In this document: positions 1,831 through 45,185 of the stretch, piece after piece
Layout: each line of letters opens with the position of its first letter
Numbering within the stretch: the first letter of the stretch is position 1
Assembly: GCA_021162845.1 (NCBI GenBank)
Contig: JAGGXX010000047.1
Span: forward strand, 1 to 64,000
From: Thermoprotei archaeon
Lineage (GTDB): Archaea > Thermoproteota > Thermoprotei > QMSL01 > B3-G16
Length of the DNA stretch: 64,000 nt
Reading direction: 5' to 3'
Position numbers and translations under genes: made by a program
Notes under the pieces: generated by a model
What the model was told of the DNA's origin: nothing
The model's input: only the letters and a program-made list of their open reading frames with translations
Database searches by the model: none

Positions 1831-2414
1831 ATGGCTAAGCGACCTACATATAGGATAGAGAATGTGGTTGCCTCGGTTAACCTTCATCAAAGAGTCGATC
1901 TAAACGCTATAGCTGAGAATGTGCCTAATGCTGAATATAATCCAGAACAGCCAGGCTGAGGGCCTGGCTCTGAGAGTTCCCAGGTCTAGTATTCAGGCTA
2001 TCGAAACCCAAGACAGCTACGCTCATCTTTAGCTCGGGAAAAATGGTATGTACCGGAGCTAAATCTGAGAAGCAGGTATTTAAGACCGTGAAGAGGATAA
2101 TTCGCACCCTGAAAAGGTATAACATAGTGATAAGTAAAGAGCCTGAGATTACCATTCAGAATGTAGTTGCTTCGGGGAATTTACATGCCGAAGTGAACTT
2201 AGAGAAGGTGGCTTATCTGCTTGAAAACAGCATGTACGAGCCAGAGCAATTTCCAGGCCTAATATATCGCATGGATGACCCTAAGGTTGTCCTGCTCATA
2301 TTCAGTAGCGGTAAGCTCGTTTGTACAGGTGCTAAGAAGGAGGATGAGGTCAAGCAGGCGGTGAACAAGATATACCAGAGGTTGAAGTCATTAGGTGTGC
2401 TATACGAGGAGTGA
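1831..2414 (+). CDS. tbp: TATA-binding protein, interrupted by a 26-nt intron
   Basis: General transcription factor that binds the TATA box and recruits TFB and RNA polymerase. Exon 1 is 1831-1948 and exon 2 is 1975-2414; joined, they encode 185 residues, the usual archaeal TBP length. The two direct repeats are complete only after joining: repeat 1 has NPEQ then FPGLVFRL and [14 protein letters not shown]; repeat 2 has [12 protein letters not shown] and [14 protein letters not shown]. Unspliced, the frame ends at TGA 1957 after 42 residues. A gene finder would see only residues from Met2043 and call a truncated protein. A GNAT gene follows at once. Identity is certain; splicing is inferred from structure and homology. 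Confidence 0.93.
1949..1974 (+). other. Predicted archaeal (BHB) mRNA intron in the TBP gene
   Basis: TBP homology requires removal of 26 nt, with three equivalent junctions (1949, 1950 or 1951 as first base). The RNA folds as a bulge-helix-bulge. The central helix is CAGA (1943-1946) with TCTG (1969-1972). The 5' bulge is ACA (1947-1949) and the 3' bulge is AGA (1973-1975). The inner stem is GCCAGGC (1950-1956) with GCCTGGC (1962-1968), closing a 5-nt loop. Cutting each bulge after its second base gives exactly 1949-1974, one of the three permitted junctions. The outer exon helix is weak, so the motif is of the relaxed type lacking the outer helix. The intron carries an in-frame TGA. Confidence 0.88.
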
Positions 2415-3507: not shown

Positions 3508-4081
3508 ATGATGATAGAAGTACGCTGGCATGGGCGAGGTGGACAAGGCGTAGTCACTGTAAGCCGCTTATTAGCCATGGCTGCCCTCCATGAGGGCAAG
3601 TACGTACAGGCGATCCCGCAATTCGGCCCCGAGACGCCCTACTAGGGCGCGGGATAGAAGCGGGGCGCCTGTCACAGGCTATACTAGGATAAGCGATGAA
3701 CCTATCGATATACATAGTGGAGTGTACAGCCCCGATATCGTAGTAGTGATAGATCCCTTCGTCATACGAACCGTAAACGTATTAGAGGGCCTTAAGGAAG
3801 GGGGCTCCCTAATAGTTAACTCAAGCGAGGATCCATCTAGTCTAAAGAACGAACTGAAGATTACCAATCCAGTGTACACGGTTGATGCCACTAAGATAGC
3901 ATTGGACATATTCAATAGGCCGTTCTTCAATACGCCTATGCTGGGTGCGCTTGTAAAGGTTACCAAGATAGTGTCGTTGGACTCCGTGGAGAAGGCGATA
4001 AGGGCACGGTTCGAAGGCACTCTAGCTGAGAAGAACATTCAAGCCGTTAAAAGGGCATATGAGGAGGTGAAAGGCGAATGA
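3508..4081 (+). CDS. porC: Pyruvate/2-oxoacid:ferredoxin oxidoreductase gamma subunit, interrupted by a 22-nt intron
   Basis: Gamma subunit of the CoA-dependent 2-oxoacid:ferredoxin oxidoreductase, which decarboxylates 2-oxoacids in the cytosol. Exon 1 (3508-3633) encodes [16 protein letters not shown] through IPQFGPE. Exon 2 (3656-4081) continues [17 protein letters not shown]. Joined, the product is 183 residues, normal for the family, and rebuilds the conserved FGPERSGAP motif. Unspliced, translation stops at TAG 3643 after 45 residues. It overlaps the delta gene by 4 bases (ATGA) and heads the gamma-delta-alpha-beta operon. Start and family are firm; splicing is inferred from homology plus the folded motif. 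Confidence 0.92.
3634..3655 (+). other. Predicted archaeal (BHB) mRNA intron in the gamma subunit gene
   Basis: Homology requires removal of 22 nt between the GAG codon at 3631 and AGA AGC GGG. The fold is a bulge-helix-bulge. The central helix is CCCG (3628-3631) with CGGG (3650-3653). The 5' bulge is AGA (3632-3634) and the 3' bulge is ATA (3654-3656). The inner stem is CGCCCT (3635-3640) with AGGGCG (3644-3649) around a 3-nt loop. Cutting each bulge after its second base yields exactly 3634-3655. The outer exon helix has a single C-G pair, so this is a relaxed motif. The intron carries an in-frame TAG. Confidence 0.88.
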
Positions 4082-14741: not shown

Positions 14742-15770
14742 ATGCAGGAGAGGCCGTTAAAGGTTGCCATAGTGGGCTTCGGCTTCATGGGGCAAACGCA
14801 TGCTGCAGCATGGGCTCGCATACCAGAGGCGCAGATAAAAGCCGTGTTCGAGGTGCCCGCAAGAGCTCCTCAGATAAGACATATGGTCTCGGAATATGGA
14901 GCTAAGGTAGTCACGAATTATGAAGAGATCTTAGAGGACGAAGAGGTAAATGTAGTGGATGTATGCCTGCCAACGTTCTTGCATAGAGAATATGTAGTCA
15001 AGGCCCTTAAAGCGGGTAAGCATGTCCTATGTGAAAAGCCGATAGCTCTTCATCTTTGGGAAGCTAGGGAGATGATAGATGCATGGAAGAGTTCGGGGAA
15101 AAAATTCATGATAGCTCATGTAGTACGCTTCTTCCCTGAGTATAAGCAAGCTAAGGAGCTAGTTGATAGCGGTGCACTTGGGGAACCGAGGATAGCTAGG
15201 ACTTACCGTTACAGCGCGTTTCCCCCATGGAGTGTCAAGGGCTGGTTCGGGGTGCAGAGGCTAAGCGGAGGGGTCCTTGTGGATCTAGCTATCCATGATA
15301 TGGACTTTCTAAGGTGGATATTCAATGATGAAGTAGCGCGTGTCTATGCGCTCTCACCGGAGCGTAGGGTCGTTAAAGGCATAACGGCTCAGGATCACGG
15401 AATCGCCCTCTTGAAGTTCAAGAAGGGCGGTATAGCGTACGTGATGGCTAGCTGGGCCTATCCCAAGACCGTGCCTTTCTCCACGTATTTCGAGCTCGTG
15501 GGGACGGGAGGTATCCTTCAATTCGACAATAGATCTACAGCCCCTCTAAGGCTGGGAACTAGCGAGCAATATTCTACCATTCAGACATATCCCGAGGATC
15601 CTTATTATCTGGAGATAAGGCACTTCGCCGATCACATATTAAAGGACGTGGAATTAATGGTTACGCCAGAGGATGCATATAAGGCCTTGGAGATATCCCT
15701 AGCAGCTGTGAAATCGTCCCTTACAGGCGAACCGGTAAGCTTACCCCTTAAGGAGGAGGTGATCCCATGA
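14742..15770 (+). CDS. Gfo/Idh/MocA-family oxidoreductase (first of a pair)
   Basis: NAD(P)-dependent dehydrogenase, most likely of a sugar or inositol derivative. It has 342 residues. N-terminal Rossmann domain: AIVGFGFMGQTHAAAWARI with G-x-G-x-x-G, and CEKPIALHLWEARE with the family's E-K-P lysine. C-terminal alpha/beta domain: GGVLVDLAIHDMDFLRWIF with the conserved D-x-x-x-H. The stop overlaps the ATG of a second family member by 4 bases and the RBS GGAGGTGAT lies in its last codons, so the two are made together. Substrate unknown. Confidence 0.92.
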   Translation: MQERPLKVAIVGFGFMGQTHAAAWARIPEAQIKAVFEVPARAPQIRHMVSEYGAKVVTNYEEILEDEEVNVVDVCLPTFLHREYVVKALKAGKHVLCEKPIALHLWEAREMIDAWKSSGKKFMIAHVVRFFPEYKQAKELVDSGALGEPRIARTYRYSAFPPWSVKGWFGVQRLSGGVLVDLAIHDMDFLRWIFNDEVARVYALSPERRVVKGITAQDHGIALLKFKKGGIAYVMASWAYPKTVPFSTYFELVGTGGILQFDNRSTAPLRLGTSEQYSTIQTYPEDPYYLEIRHFADHILKDVELMVTPEDAYKALEISLAAVKSSLTGEPVSLPLKEEVIP

Positions 15771-16825
15771 GGAAATTTAAGGCCGCCCTCCTCAGTTTCG
15801 CTCATGTACATGCTCCCTCCTATGCTCGTGTTTTAAAGGAACTACCTAATGTAGACTTCGTGGCCATTTGGGATGATAATGAAGAAAGAGGTAAGGCTTT
15901 TCAAAAACGATACTCCGTGGAGAGGTACTACTCGGATCTGGAAAGATTATTCGCGGAGAATAGGGATTTGGACTTCGTAATAGTGACCTCGGAAAACGCT
16001 AGGCATTATGAACATGTGAAAATAGCCTTAGAGCACGACGTACATGTATTATGCGAAAAACCATTAACTACGAATCTCGGACATGCCGACGAGCTAGTTT
16101 CCATTGCTAGGCGAAGGGGACTTAAGCTCGGAACGTGCTTTGTAATGCGCTTCCACTCAGCTACAATTCAAGCTTATAATATGCTCAGAGGAGGCGATAT
16201 AGGCTTACCAGTCTCGATAACCACGACCAATCACGGTACTTGCCCATATAAAGCAGCCCACTGGTTCGTGGAGCCAGAGCTCTCTTATGGGGCTCGTGTT
16301 AACCTAAGAGAGGGAGATCCCCGTTACAGAGGAGGGAGCATAACAGATCATACGGTGCATTGTGCGGATCTGCTTAGGTGGTTCCTAGGAAGTGAAGTTG
16401 AAGAGGTATATGCGGAAGTAGGTGCAAATATACGCTCCGATTTGGAGGTCGAGGATAACGCCCTTGTGATGCTCAAGTTCAGAAATGGCGTACAGGCCTC
16501 CATAGATTGTAGCTGGAGTAGACCCGAGGGCGTATACCCAACATGGGGTGACGTTAACCTCTATATAGTAGGTTCTAATGGTGTGATCGAGATTGAGGCC
16601 TTTAACCAGAATGTACACCTCGCCACTTGGAAGATGAAGAGGCTAGTATACAGTTACTGGGGCCCTGACGTAGATAAGGTCATGATAACGCAATTCATGA
16701 AGGCTATAGAGGAGGACTCCGAGCCTAAAGCTAGCGGTTGGGATGGCAGGCAGGCAACGGAGATCATGTTAGCAGCATATCGCTCGATAAAAGAAGGCAG
16801 GCCAGTAAAATTACCGCTTCTGTAA
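15767..16825 (+). CDS. Gfo/Idh/MocA-family oxidoreductase (second of a pair)
   Basis: Paralogue of the preceding gene, 352 residues, with a perfect GGAGGTGAT ribosome-binding site 4 bases before the ATG. The E-K-P motif is present (CEKPLTTNLGHADELV), as is GGSITDHTVHCADLLRWFLG. The N-terminal glycine motif is replaced by LSFAHVHAPSYARVL, so cofactor binding differs from its partner or is reduced. Residues 163-205 carry an insert (SYGARVNLREGDPRYRGG) typical of the carbohydrate-acting members. The pair may work on successive steps or as hetero-oligomer. Confidence 0.9.
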   Translation: MRKFKAALLSFAHVHAPSYARVLKELPNVDFVAIWDDNEERGKAFQKRYSVERYYSDLERLFAENRDLDFVIVTSENARHYEHVKIALEHDVHVLCEKPLTTNLGHADELVSIARRRGLKLGTCFVMRFHSATIQAYNMLRGGDIGLPVSITTTNHGTCPYKAAHWFVEPELSYGARVNLREGDPRYRGGSITDHTVHCADLLRWFLGSEVEEVYAEVGANIRSDLEVEDNALVMLKFRNGVQASIDCSWSRPEGVYPTWGDVNLYIVGSNGVIEIEAFNQNVHLATWKMKRLVYSYWGPDVDKVMITQFMKAIEEDSEPKASGWDGRQATEIMLAAYRSIKEGRPVKLPLL

Positions 16826-16850: not shown

Positions 16851-16930
16851 TCCCTATGAAGGGTTACCTCATCCGATATGAGCTCGCTGAAATAAAATGA
16901 TTTTTAACATTATAAAAAGAACTTACATGA

Positions 16931-16994
16931 GGGCTATGATGACTAGGGACCGTTCTGGCTTAGGGAGTGATGATCAAGCGGTTGTGCTGAGCCC
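16931..16994 (+). ncRNA. C/D box sRNA (2'-O-methylation guide)
   Basis: All four boxes occur in order in a non-coding gap. C box ATGATGA (16936-16942); 12-nt guide (16943-16954); D' box CTGG (16955-16958, one base off CTGA). C' box TGATGA (16968-16973); 13-nt guide (16974-16986); D box CTGA (16987-16990). GGGCT at the 5' end pairs with AGCCC at the 3' end, closing the kink-turn stem. The first guide is complementary, with one mismatch and one G-U pair over 12 nt, to the universally conserved AACGGUCCUAAG around helix 69 of 23S rRNA (recalled, not searched). That predicts methylation at the second G. The second guide's target is not recognised. Confidence 0.75.
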
Positions 16995-17005
16995 TTATTC
17001 CTTAC

Positions 17006-17092
17006 TTACATGAATTTATAGCCCCAGTGTTTTAGGGCTTCCATAAGTTCCTTATGCTCCTTAGCATATTCCTCGACCGGTATGCTCTTCAT
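17006..17092 (-). pseudogene. Short C-terminal gene fragment
   Basis: Minus-strand frame MKSIPVEEYAKEHKELMEALKHWGYKF ending in TAA. It is amphipathic, Glu/Lys rich and protein-like, unlike random translation, and stays open 10 codons further upstream (AKEKKEF) before a TGA at 17123. It looks like the tail of a decayed gene, or a tiny protein of 28 residues. No ribosome-binding site is clear. No family recognised. The remaining bases between 16826 and 17196 hold the sRNA, a T-rich tract, and otherwise nothing I can support. Confidence 0.3.
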
Positions 17093-17196
17093 GAACTCCT
17101 TCTTCTCCTTAGCTATTACTCTTCACCCTCGTATGTTAGATATCACAGCTCTCCTACTGTTAATCTTCTCGCATTTACAAGGAGAATGGGCTTTCT

Positions 17197-18426
17197 CTAC
17201 TTAGAACTTAAAAAGGACCAAAATGAGCTCTTGGATCGCCTCTTTTCATATTCGTTAATGGCGTTTTTGACGATCTCTAATCCTTCAAGACTAGCTAAGC
17301 TGTATGAGTGTATCATGATTCCTTCCTTCCACGTATCTAATGCTTTCCTCGCCGTCAGCATTATCTCTCTTAAGTTCATTCCTTCTAATACCATTATTGC
17401 TGGATAGCCCATTCCATTGCTTAACTTCCTAGCCTTCACGCACTGCTTACTAAACCACTTGACATCCCTCCTTAACATCCTGTGATATAACACTGGCTTA
17501 ACGACGTTCACCATCTTGCTGATCGCCCTATAGTCAACCCCCAGCGAGCGGGCTATGTCGGGTGGTGGTACTAAGGCGGATACCCGTACGCCGTAATCAT
17601 GAGCCGTAGTTACCATATCGTCAATAAGTTCCGTCGTGGTCTGTATCCTGAAGTTGATGAACTCGCTTATGTTACCATATCTAACTAAGCTTTTGAGCTT
17701 ATCATAATTCCTGAAGGTAAACGCCTCCTCAAATGGCTCTTCCCCCATCTTGTTCATAAATCGCCTCATCTTACTGCTTAAATCGTCTTTCCTCATCCTA
17801 CTTATAATACTATCTAGATTAATCCCCCTATCCTTAGCCTCTATGCGGCAGTACTTACAGAAGCACGTGATCCTATCCCTCATCAACGGCGATATCGGGT
17901 GCCAATACTCCCCTATCTCTATTTCAGCGACCTCCTCCCGTGTAGCTAAATCTTCTGTCAAACCTATTAGATACCTCCTGACGTTCGGATCTAAGGGGCA
18001 AACCCAGGCCCCTCCATATAATACGGGCTCCCCCCTATCGTCAACCATATAATGCATGTTACCTTCCAATCCCATGTTTAGGCAGTTGACGTGGGCTACA
18101 ACTTCAAGGCCATAAGAATATGCCCTGTTAACCACATGCCTTAAGTCAAAGCACAGAAGTTCTCGATACCTGTACGGCCTTATCGACGTGGCCCTGTAGA
18201 GCTTCGCATTAGGCTCGAAGAAGAGCCCTCCTGCCCTTGAGCTATACCCGATCGCCTTACCATCATAAGTAAATAGAAGGTTCATCTTCGTAAAGTTCAT
18301 GTTGTTCATGAAGACCGAGATGGCATTTCCTCCTAGGAACCCCACTATGTTGCTAAACGTCCTCTCAAGGACGTCAAGGCATAGGTCCTTAGGATGAACC
18401 CATATCCCAATGTACACTGAGATCAC
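17197..18426 (-). CDS. TIM-barrel protein resembling family-10-like/alpha-amylase-fold glycosidases
   Basis: 409 residues, probably a glycoside hydrolase-like (alpha/beta)8 barrel. The GTG at 18426 overlaps an AGGTGAT; a GTG at 18417 is an alternative. Features suggesting the fold: HVVNRAYSYGLEVVAHVNCLN (strand 3-like), WVCPLDPNVRRYLIGLTEDLA, and EIEIGEYWHPISP with candidate acids. CFCKYCRIEAKDRG matches the C-F-C-x-x-C segment seen in hypothetical barrel glycosidases. No signal peptide, so cytosolic. It lies opposite the Gfo/Idh pair, and a shared role in sugar breakdown is plausible but unproven. Confidence 0.65.
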   Translation of the reverse strand: MISVYIGIWVHPKDLCLDVLERTFSNIVGFLGGNAISVFMNNMNFTKMNLLFTYDGKAIGYSSRAGGLFFEPNAKLYRATSIRPYRYRELLCFDLRHVVNRAYSYGLEVVAHVNCLNMGLEGNMHYMVDDRGEPVLYGGAWVCPLDPNVRRYLIGLTEDLATREEVAEIEIGEYWHPISPLMRDRITCFCKYCRIEAKDRGINLDSIISRMRKDDLSSKMRRFMNKMGEEPFEEAFTFRNYDKLKSLVRYGNISEFINFRIQTTTELIDDMVTTAHDYGVRVSALVPPPDIARSLGVDYRAISKMVNVVKPVLYHRMLRRDVKWFSKQCVKARKLSNGMGYPAIMVLEGMNLREIMLTARKALDTWKEGIMIHSYSLASLEGLEIVKNAINEYEKRRSKSSFWSFLSSK

Positions 18427-18718: not shown

Positions 18719-18910
18719 GTGCAACGTAAAAGCCACCTCAGGCTGGTTAGCATCCATCTTCCTGAGAGTTATGTAGAAGGACTTGATGAGCTAGTACTTA
18801 AAGGCCTTTATCCCTCAAGAAGCGAGGCCATACGTATCGCTGTGCGCGACTTGCTAAAACGCGAGCTATGGAGACGCAGAAGGTACCGTTCCGTGAGAAT
18901 GATTGGCTAG
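18719..18910 (+). CDS. Ribbon-helix-helix (CopG/NikR-like) DNA-binding protein
   Basis: Small transcription regulator. The GTG at 18719, preceded by GGGTGTGAT, gives 63 residues. The beta-strand HLRLVSIHLPESYVEGLDEL is followed by KGLYPSRSEAIRIAVRDLLKREL. This is the complete ribbon-helix-helix fold, with the conserved S-R-S-E-A-I-R turn. The C-terminus is basic (RRRRYRSVRMIG). The frame extends upstream to an ATG at 18569 with no conserved sequence, which I reject as the start. It lies upstream of the DUF59 gene. Target unknown; possibly its own promoter. Confidence 0.85.
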   Translation: MQRKSHLRLVSIHLPESYVEGLDELVLKGLYPSRSEAIRIAVRDLLKRELWRRRRYRSVRMIG

Positions 18911-26952: not shown

Positions 26953-27924
26953 ATGAGGGAGGCTGAAGAGACCCGTAAGGGACTACTCAGACGTCCCGTG
27001 AAGGACTATACCGTGAGCCGCGATACGACGATATCAAGGCTCATAGAGCTTTTCAGCGAGAGCGGTGGCTTCACATGTGTAACAATAGCCGAAGCAGTCG
27101 ATATACTTTCTGAAGCATATTCACGTGATGACTGTACCAACTTCCTCTCCTTTCCTGCTTCTATCATTGCTACGGGACTCAGAGGAGTTATTGCGGATAT
27201 GATCCGTAAGGAATTGATAGATGTCATAATAACGACTGGCGGCATGGTGGACCATGATCTAGCGAGAAGCCTTGGTGGCACGTACTATAAAGGAGATTTT
27301 GACATGGACGATATAATGTTAAAGGACTTGAACATCCATAGATTAGGTAATGTACTGGTACCCTTAGAAAGCTACGGCCCGCTCATAGAGAAGGTAACGT
27401 GGCGTCTACTGAAGGAGATTCAAGCTGAGACCAAGAAGGAAGTGTTCAGTGTGAGGGAACTGCTCCACGAGATAGGCAAACGCATAGACGATCCTAACTC
27501 AATACTAGCTCAGGCAGCGAAACACGATGTGCGCATATATGCACCTGGTATCGTCGACTCGGCCTTCGGTACGGATCTGTTCACATACTCCCAATTACAC
27601 GCCTTCAAGATAGATTTATTCAGGGACATGAAGGAACTCTCGGACATAGTATGGGAGGCCAAATGTTGTAGTGCGCTTATGATAGGTGGAGGCATCTCCA
27701 AGCACCACACCATATGGTGGAATCAATTTCGCGGAGGCTTAGACTACGCTGTCTACGTGACCACTGCAGTAGAGTACGATGGTAGCCTATCAGGTGCACG
27801 ATTAAAGGAGGCGATAAGCTGGGGTAAAGTAAAGCGCAACGCAAAGCACGTGACGATATTCGGTGAAGCTACAGTAATCCTTCCGCTGATAGTAGCTGGT
27901 ATATACGCTAAATTGAATATATAA
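26953..27924 (+). CDS. dys: Deoxyhypusine synthase
   Basis: Transfers the aminobutyl group of spermidine to a lysine of aIF5A. It has 323 residues. NAD-binding motifs: TNFLSFPASIIATGLRGVIAD, TTGGMVDHDLAR, and YKGDFDMDDIMLKDLNIHRLGN. MIGGGISKHHTIWWNQFRGGLDYAVYVTTA is the conserved core. The active-site lysine lies in SGARLKEAISWGKVK (about 293). The spermidine supply links it to the agmatinase gene at 41.6 kb. The start ATG overlaps the leader of the divergent transferase. Confidence 0.95.
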   Translation: MREAEETRKGLLRRPVKDYTVSRDTTISRLIELFSESGGFTCVTIAEAVDILSEAYSRDDCTNFLSFPASIIATGLRGVIADMIRKELIDVIITTGGMVDHDLARSLGGTYYKGDFDMDDIMLKDLNIHRLGNVLVPLESYGPLIEKVTWRLLKEIQAETKKEVFSVRELLHEIGKRIDDPNSILAQAAKHDVRIYAPGIVDSAFGTDLFTYSQLHAFKIDLFRDMKELSDIVWEAKCCSALMIGGGISKHHTIWWNQFRGGLDYAVYVTTAVEYDGSLSGARLKEAISWGKVKRNAKHVTIFGEATVILPLIVAGIYAKLNI

Positions 27925-37065: not shown

Positions 37066-37623
37066 CTAAGCTTTAAACCACTTGAACATGTAATAACGTA
37101 TCTCTCTAGTCTTTGGGTGTACTGTAGCCAGTATGAAGCGCTTTCTGACGCTATGCGAAAGTCTTCCAGCCTTCACTATTTCTATGGGATCTAGCTTGGC
37201 TTCATACGGCATAACATGGACTAAGAAAGGCGCATGGTCTATCCCAGGTCCATACCTGTAAACGGCGAAAGTGCTACCGAATTTCAGTCCAGGACGAACT
37301 ACGTAGCCTTTAGCACGAAGATCCTTGTAGACCTCATATACATCATCAAACATGTCAAATGCCTTCCTACCTAACTCCCTAAGTTCATCTGGTTTAAGGT
37401 TCTTACCGTTATGATCTATGACTTCTATTCTCCCACGCTCGAGGAGGTATAGGGCTTCGACGAGGGACAACTCCACCGGTCGCTCTATATCTAATTCCTT
37501 TGGCTTGCTTATCCCCACGAATTTGCCATAATATCCCTCCTTGTAAAGCCTCGGCCCTCTTTGTTCATCCCATGCTATTATGCGTGATCCCAGAACGTAG
37601 GTCTTTACCTTCTCCTCACTCAT
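37066..37623 (-). CDS. endA: tRNA-intron (splicing) endonuclease
   Basis: Cleaves bulge-helix-bulge motifs in precursor tRNA and mRNA, leaving 2',3'-cyclic phosphate ends. It has 185 residues from the ATG at 37623; a TTG three codons upstream is less likely. N-terminal domain: YVLGSRIIAWDEQRGPRLYKEGYYGKFVG and ELSLVEALYLLERGRIEV. Catalytic domain: RPGLKFGSTFAVYRYGPGIDHAPFLVHVM, holding the Tyr and His. The Lys is in LSHSVRKRFILATV. The triad is complete, so this is a catalytic subunit. Three predicted substrates lie in this window (1949-1974, 3634-3655, 45132-45147). Confidence 0.94.
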   Translation of the reverse strand: MSEEKVKTYVLGSRIIAWDEQRGPRLYKEGYYGKFVGISKPKELDIERPVELSLVEALYLLERGRIEVIDHNGKNLKPDELRELGRKAFDMFDDVYEVYKDLRAKGYVVRPGLKFGSTFAVYRYGPGIDHAPFLVHVMPYEAKLDPIEIVKAGRLSHSVRKRFILATVHPKTREIRYYMFKWFKA

Positions 37624-37723
37624 GAATCCCAACCTTAGGCTTATTTACTAAGGGGTGTTAAGAAATATATTCTTGAGGTTATTAAGGTCTTAAAGACTTA
37701 GAGGCCTCGAGGCTGGTGCTATC

Positions 37724-44897: not shown

Positions 44898-45096
44898 TTT
44901 TCGATTAAGCAAAGAATAGAATACATTTCTGTCCTATTAAAACATTTCGCTATCGTAATGGAACAGACTGGGAAGGCCTCGCTCTTCATGTTCTTGTAAG
45001 CATCCTAGTTATCTAGATACATCCTCAGCATTTAAGAATCGATCTTTGTAAAATTATCTATAGACATAGTAATCAATTATAATAATTAGGAAATGG

Positions 45097-45185
45097 TAGC
45101 CCGGCGGGGATTCGAACCCCGGTCGGCGGGGATCCCCCCTGAACGGGCCAGAGCCCGCCATGCTTGGCCGCTACACCACCGGGCT
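45097..45185 (-). tRNA. tRNA-Gln (CUG anticodon) with a 16-nt intron
   Basis: Acceptor AGCCCGG pairs CCGGGCT, with discriminator A. D arm GTGT...GCAT. Anticodon stem GCGGG pairs CCCGC around loop CTCTGGC, whose anticodon CTG decodes CAG. T arm CGGGG-TTCGAAT-CCCCG. A CCA end is encoded (45094-45096). The anticodon stem pairs only if 16 nt are removed between positions 37 and 38. Exons are 45148-45185 and 45097-45131. Family and identity come from pairing and anticodon, not from a search. Confidence 0.93.
45132..45147 (-). other. tRNA-Gln intron at position 37/38
   Basis: Intron sequence is CCCGTTCAGGGGGGAT. Central helix: exon CTCT (32-35) with GGGG in the intron, using two G-U pairs. Bulges are GG then C at the 5' site and AT then C at the 3' site. 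Exon and intron bases are divided 2+1 and 2+1, as in the two mRNA introns of this window. The canonical 37/38 position supports the call. At 16 nt it is short for an archaeal tRNA intron. Confidence 0.85.

Follow-up and report, generated by a model that had tools for sequence, protein, structure and literature searches.

A probable crenarchaeal-type (αβ)2 splicing endonuclease and its candidate TBP and POR γ pre-mRNA substrates in a Thermoprotei archaeon

Results

The EndA catalytic subunit

The window, by which we mean the whole 64,000-nucleotide stretch of Thermoprotei DNA that was analysed, carries a gene for an EndA catalytic (α) subunit on its minus strand (37066..37623), together with interrupted genes for TBP and for a POR γ-type protein and a tRNA-Gln gene with an intron. 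The α open reading frame spans 37066-37632, and the ATG at 37623 gives a protein of 185 residues, which matches the Pfam profiles PF02778 (N-terminal domain, E 6e-19) and PF01974 (catalytic domain, E 7.6e-30). The first-pass annotation of this DNA had assigned a catalytic subunit on the basis of a full Tyr-His-Lys triad, and this assignment holds. Tyr122 (37258..37260), His130 (37234..37236) and Lys161 (37141..37143), all on the minus strand, are each found in 47/47 aligned α sequences, comprised of the window protein and 46 others picked from 80 loci; the His position is occupied by another residue in all 14 β sequences examined. Arg154 and Trp182 are invariant in the same 47 sequences and are candidates for the Arg and Trp of α that take part in substrate recognition according to a passage of PMC6379350.

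The best sequence matches of α in the PDB are chains from Aeropyrum pernix (3p1z_B, E 3e-50, and 3ajv_B), Pyrobaculum (2zyz_B) and Sulfolobus (2cv8_A), and the nearest named genome is that of Thermoprotei archaeon B3_G16 (73% identity), which corresponds to G001, a relative from the same family (100% DNA identity across 3252 bases). Thus, the euryarchaeal enzymes, against which the protein had earlier been measured, are not the applicable yardstick. An (αβ)2 architecture is the rule for crenarchaeal EndA and, since α is nearest to these enzymes, the outcome described below is expected rather than surprising.

We used AlphaFold to model α (mean pLDDT of 88.3, pTM of 0.86). The model was most similar to four crenarchaeal chains with tied scores, 2zyz_B (Z 24.6, rmsd 1.7 over 179 residues), 3ajv_B (Z 24.6, rmsd 1.8 over 180 residues), 2cv8_B (Z 24.3) and 3p1z_B (Z 24.2), with Methanocaldococcus jannaschii 1a79_A next behind (Z 21.9). 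Foldseek also placed crenarchaeal chains on top.

The Crenarchaea-specific loop

A specificity insert in α had been anticipated as one of two alternatives, to be sought in a model of the protein, and is found in the form of the Crenarchaea-specific loop (residues about 32-47; 37483..37530, minus strand), placed by alignment to K44-P-R46 of Aeropyrum. Residues 36-49 are coil in the AlphaFold model, and α has nine additional residues following YYGKF relative to the second EndA protein (β, below). Within the loop, K40 (37504-37506, minus strand) aligns to Aeropyrum K44 and K42 (37498-37500, minus strand) to R46; K44 and a basic residue at 46 form the conserved part of the loop in the text of PMC12397907. 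K40 is found in 47/47 α sequences and position 42 is Lys in 41 and Arg in six, and both positions are gapped in the 14 β sequences examined. Passages of PMC6379350 describe the cleavage of relaxed motifs by (αβ)2 EndAs, in which the loop Lys matters, and a graft of the loop into the Archaeoglobus enzyme that conferred broad specificity and required the Lys.

EndA sequences from Asgard and Bathyarchaeota MAGs (loci L070, L080, L087, L093, L103, L104, L115, L118 and L121) also have the loop Lys, followed two positions later by a basic residue. Thus, despite its name, the loop is not restricted to Crenarchaea.

A second EndA gene

The other alternative in the first-pass annotation was a second, structural subunit elsewhere in the genome. 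Searching the genome (95% complete at 2.18 Mb) with PF01974 at E 10 gave two genes and no others, the second of which lies on a different contig from α (G000:C18:3508-3768, PF01974 E 1.8e-21, equivalent to L002:1249-1788) and encodes 179 residues with both domains. This protein is 33% identical to α, lacks the loop, and keeps the catalytic Tyr and Lys (Y-P-K in the multiple alignment); the place of the catalytic His is taken by Pro in two alignments and by Tyr in a two-sequence alignment, and never by His. These features fit a structural β subunit. Fused chains of about 290-390 residues characterize the α′2 and ε2 types of EndA, and the genes here are separate, encoding 185 and 179 residues; nor does the genome hold the single catalytic gene of an α4 enzyme, two genes being present.

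The pair is widespread. All 61 genomes of the class, our own included, have a PF01974 match, with two in 49 and one in 12, a count to be read in the knowledge that many genomes are incomplete and that some second matches lie under the curated cut-off. Among the 14 β sequences read, none has the catalytic His and seven keep both Tyr and Lys. With two EndA genes in 49/61 genomes, and with Aeropyrum, Pyrobaculum and Sulfolobus providing the nearest solved relatives, the enzyme appears ordinary.

We compared the two proteins with EndAs of known structure. The Aeropyrum pernix (αβ)2 enzyme (3P1Z, 3AJV) shares with ours an α that is 46% identical over 180 residues of structural alignment, the triad, the loop Lys with a basic residue two positions on, and a separate second subunit. 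However, our β retains Tyr and Lys, and its sequence lies closer to the Methanopyrus fused chain (E 1.4e-32) and M. jannaschii α (E 1.3e-27) than to Aeropyrum β, which gives a weak sequence match (E 4.3e-4); Aeropyrum α matches at E 9.5e-14. These matches sit uneasily with a simple (αβ)2 reading, and we take them to mean that β is a less diverged structural subunit. The α fold and the aligned loop are likewise shared with the Pyrobaculum aerophilum (αβ)2 enzyme (2ZYZ), whereas the β of that enzyme has 96 residues and lacks the N-terminal domain in the description given by PMC6379350, unlike the two-domain β here. In the L10 loop and pocket segments, DRQGD of β is net acidic and HPKTRE of α net basic, although the α segments of several relatives are not net basic; these charges are at most suggestive of heterotetramer assembly through the L10 loop and pocket.

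An alternative reading is that α alone forms an α4 homotetramer of narrow specificity, the second gene being a decaying paralogue and the mRNA breaks being handled in some other way. The M. jannaschii α4 enzyme is indeed the next fold match of α (Z 21.9), and the retained Tyr and Lys look as if the second gene had been catalytic until recently. However, two copies in most genomes of the class and the consistent absence of the His from β are unlike decay, and α bears the loop known from (αβ)2 enzymes. We regard an α4 enzyme as quite improbable, and the pairing of α with a structural β is the reading that we carry forward.

The TBP intron

The TBP (TATA-binding protein) gene (1831..2414, plus strand) matches PF00352 in two pieces that lie in different frames, with residues through PE in one and QFPG onwards in another. 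Between them is a 26 nt intron (1949..1974, plus strand) with a relaxed bulge-helix-bulge (BHB) motif, assigned by motif fit, conservation and covariation. The motif consists of the helix CAGA:TCTG, a 5′ bulge ACA, an intron hairpin of 8 bp and a 3′ bulge AGA, and the outer helix is reduced to 1 bp. Removal of the intron restores PEQFPG (PGQFPG in the B3_G16 relative). A family search found no other TBP gene in the genome.

Within the class, a TBP match was obtained in 57/61 genomes at E 0.001, one of which (G015) is weak and partial. In 18 of the 57, our own genome included, a break falls at one and the same codon of the first TBP repeat, a count that is blind to introns that keep the frame and contain no stop. 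These are G000 (our genome), G001 and G002 of family f1, G003 of f2, ten genomes of f4, three of f8 and G042 of f10. The motif searched for is matched by all 18 interrupted genes, whose introns measure 26-31 nt. Among named records, the intron is found in 4/25 genomes with a TBP match (28 searched), namely Thermoprotei B3_G16, Thermofilum sp. NZ13, Thermoproteales AUK141 and archaeon S6B1_HD70. The site is uninterrupted, reading CCNGA(A/G/C)CA(A/G)TT(C/T)CC, in all eight intronless relatives read. In the wider phylum sample, 147/151 genomes have a TBP match and, among the matches listed, G068 and G124 have three each; interrupted TBP genes may thus also exist outside the class.

One genome, G003, carries an additional TBP intron (27 nt) in the second TBP repeat. 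It occupies the codon equivalent to the first site, and the two sites have the same protein sequence and share much of their exon sequence. This second copy suggests that the TBP intron may have been transferred between like sites. Intron positions include window 1949-1974, L145:3713-3743 and 4017-4043, and L150:575-601.

We examined covariation in 12 TBP intron sequences. All 132 cells (100%) are paired, and eight of the 11 pairs change on both sides, compared with a mean of 4.4 in shuffles, where eight was reached in 1/500. Sliding the partner by one column lowers the pairing to 44-56%. Of five covariation measures, the number of further pair types was not unusual (56/500 shuffles). The covariation lies mostly in the intron hairpin, and the exon-intron helix contributes a single double change, seen in two genomes that belong to the same order.

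Full-length TBP could in principle be produced by programmed ribosomal frameshifting or by bypassing over the hairpin rather than by splicing. A hairpin is present at the break, and a passage of PMC2738675 recalls that archaeal introns were once mistaken for frameshifting. However, because the introns range from 26 to 31 nt, the frame of exon 2 differs between genomes while the site and structure stay the same; for example, the 27 nt intron of G002 leaves exon 2 in frame and the 26 nt intron of our genome does not. Moreover, a helix between exon 1 and the end of the intron is possible in 19/19 TBP introns, and bypassing would not need one. Recoding is therefore very improbable, and splicing remains the reading that we adopt.

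The POR γ and tRNA-Gln introns

The second interrupted gene encodes a POR γ-type protein (pyruvate/2-oxoacid ferredoxin oxidoreductase; 3508..4081, plus strand). Its PF01558 match begins at profile position 33, and the upstream part is read in another frame. The relaxed BHB intron of 22 nt (3634..3655, plus strand) combines the helix CCCG:CGGG, the bulges AGA and ATA and the hairpin CGCCC-TACTA-GGGCG with an outer helix of 1 bp. Three genomes of the order, ours, G001 and G003, have introns of 20-23 nt at this codon (FGPE^R), with hairpins that differ (window 3634-3655; L145:5389-5408; L148:6442-6464).

The earlier claim that the mRNA motifs lack the outer helix is thus borne out, with TBP and POR γ sharing one layout in which a 4-bp helix is followed by the 5′ bulge, the intron hairpin and the 3′ bulge, and in which the outer helix amounts to 1 bp. 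Together, 19 TBP introns from 18 genomes and three POR introns give 22/22 fits to the motif searched for, and the outer helix is 1 bp in 21/22, the sole exception being the second TBP intron of G003 (4 bp). The expected core is also the minimum-energy fold in 7/19 TBP and 3/3 POR introns (10/22), both window introns included. For the remaining TBP introns, the lowest-energy fold of the single sequence instead pairs exon with exon across the near-palindromic junction. The spliced TBP junction in the window, CCNGARCARTTYCCNGG (1942-1948 joined to 1975-1984), is nearly palindromic.

The tRNA-Gln(CTG) gene (45094..45185, minus strand) was found by ARAGORN with introns allowed, as tRNA-Gln(ctg) with 76 of 92 bases; without the intron option no proper anticodon was obtained. 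We place its 16-nt anticodon-loop intron at about 45132-45147. This is likely the third RNA that the first-pass annotation had in mind. We read the intron hairpin as weak, so a motif of hBH type is possible.

The motif in its sequence context

Shape alone does not identify these introns. Under strict criteria, the window contains 10 motifs on both strands, compared with 13.2 ± 4.6 in 60 dinucleotide shuffles, and two stronger motifs, compared with 1.8 in shuffles (maximum 5). The 10 motifs are no more than shuffles give and prove nothing by themselves, and we rejected the motif scan as stand-alone evidence. Only TBP and POR γ, 2/10, rejoin an interrupted frame. They stand out because the frames are rejoined, because the proteins are conserved, and because the TBP intron is conserved and covarying. 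That the breaks are sequencing errors or pseudogenes, leaving no relaxed substrate, could appeal to a bare motif that does not exceed chance but is scarcely credible: 18 genomes share the codon of the TBP break, with covariation on both sides of the pairs, no second TBP gene was found in our genome, and the POR intron recurs at one site in three genomes while its hairpin differs between them.

Looser criteria gave five other places along the window's contig (110 kb), two in L048, two in L049 and one at window 27091-27166, where the surrounding ORF encodes an almost complete deoxyhypusine synthase domain. We take these as chance, since we could not recognise the proteins that joining would produce. 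Rfam at the gathering threshold gave no match in the window. A Pfam scan of 49 window proteins and β, with the ORFs after 51 kb, that at 14742-16825 and several small ones set aside, found no clearly interrupted gene beyond TBP and POR γ.

Three further regions of the window were noted. A ribbon-helix-helix-like frame (HLRLVSIHLPESYVEGLDELV...) at about 18740-18910 is possibly an interrupted or mis-started gene. Two short coding-like frames on the minus strand at 16900-17300 lie beside a 409-residue ORF and may mark a frame break. That ORF, at 17197-18426, has no Pfam match.

Discussion

Comparison of the two genes and the interrupted RNAs makes it likely that α is a subunit of a crenarchaeal-type (αβ)2 EndA, whose loop permits relaxed motifs and whose substrates include the TBP, POR γ and tRNA-Gln RNAs. 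Two α chains and two β chains from the C18 gene would assemble into a tetramer, and the α active sites would cut, in the manner of RNase A, within both bulges of a BHB RNA. The Lys-containing loop may allow the enzyme to act when one of the motif helices is missing, so that its substrates would probably comprise tRNA-Gln and the TBP and POR γ pre-mRNAs with motifs that lack the outer helix. The genome also encodes the archaeal exon ligase RtcB (E 1.3e-184), which would join the cut ends. The sequence shows directly that the two genes are present, that α has the triad and the loop, and that the motifs exist and are conserved. Assembly and cleavage at the bulges are proposed from knowledge of the family, and a broad substrate range is predicted from the architecture together with the host's own introns.

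An α could be read in 14/18 genomes with the TBP intron, and the loop Lys is present in 14/14. The other four (G030, G038, G058 and G060) have a single low-scoring EndA match each; the one read among them, from G030, is a β. In G042, which has the TBP intron, α is present and β was not found in the class EndA search. The loop also occurs in genomes without the TBP intron and thus does not explain which genes carry introns. In our reading, the enzyme permits such introns without explaining their location.

The closest precedent is provided by the cbf5 introns of Sulfolobales and Desulfurococcales, which, as described in PMC2738675, are likewise short introns that interrupt a protein gene and carry a BHB-like motif, and whose relaxed pre-mRNA motifs are cut by hetero-oligomeric EndA. 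The genes described here, TBP and POR γ, and the lineages are different. The same paper gives no cbf5 intron for Thermofilum (0 in its table) or for Pyrobaculum, and it mentions introns in other protein genes as predicted and unconfirmed, citing two works whose titles concern a rudivirus and Sulfolobus genomes. In our genome, a cbf5 intron was considered and rejected, since both cbf5 matches fall within one 272-residue open frame. A statement in PMC7714728 (2020) names the cbf5 mRNA as the only other case reported in archaea besides its own BHB intron in a 5′ UTR. We recognised no report of a TBP or POR intron among the open-access papers listed by our searches, subscription papers and preprints lying mostly outside this scope.

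EndA itself is one more (αβ)2 enzyme, and the interest lies in its substrates. We lean towards the view that several Thermoproteota families, including one with a Thermofilum MAG, make TBP only after EndA has removed an mRNA intron of 26-31 nt, and that this intron has spread. If so, transcription in these organisms would depend on the tRNA-splicing enzyme. A TBP intron conserved across at least five families would mean that the splicing of core protein genes is commoner than thought. It would also explain broken annotations of archaeal genes, and provide natural non-tRNA substrates without an outer helix with which to probe the role of the loop.
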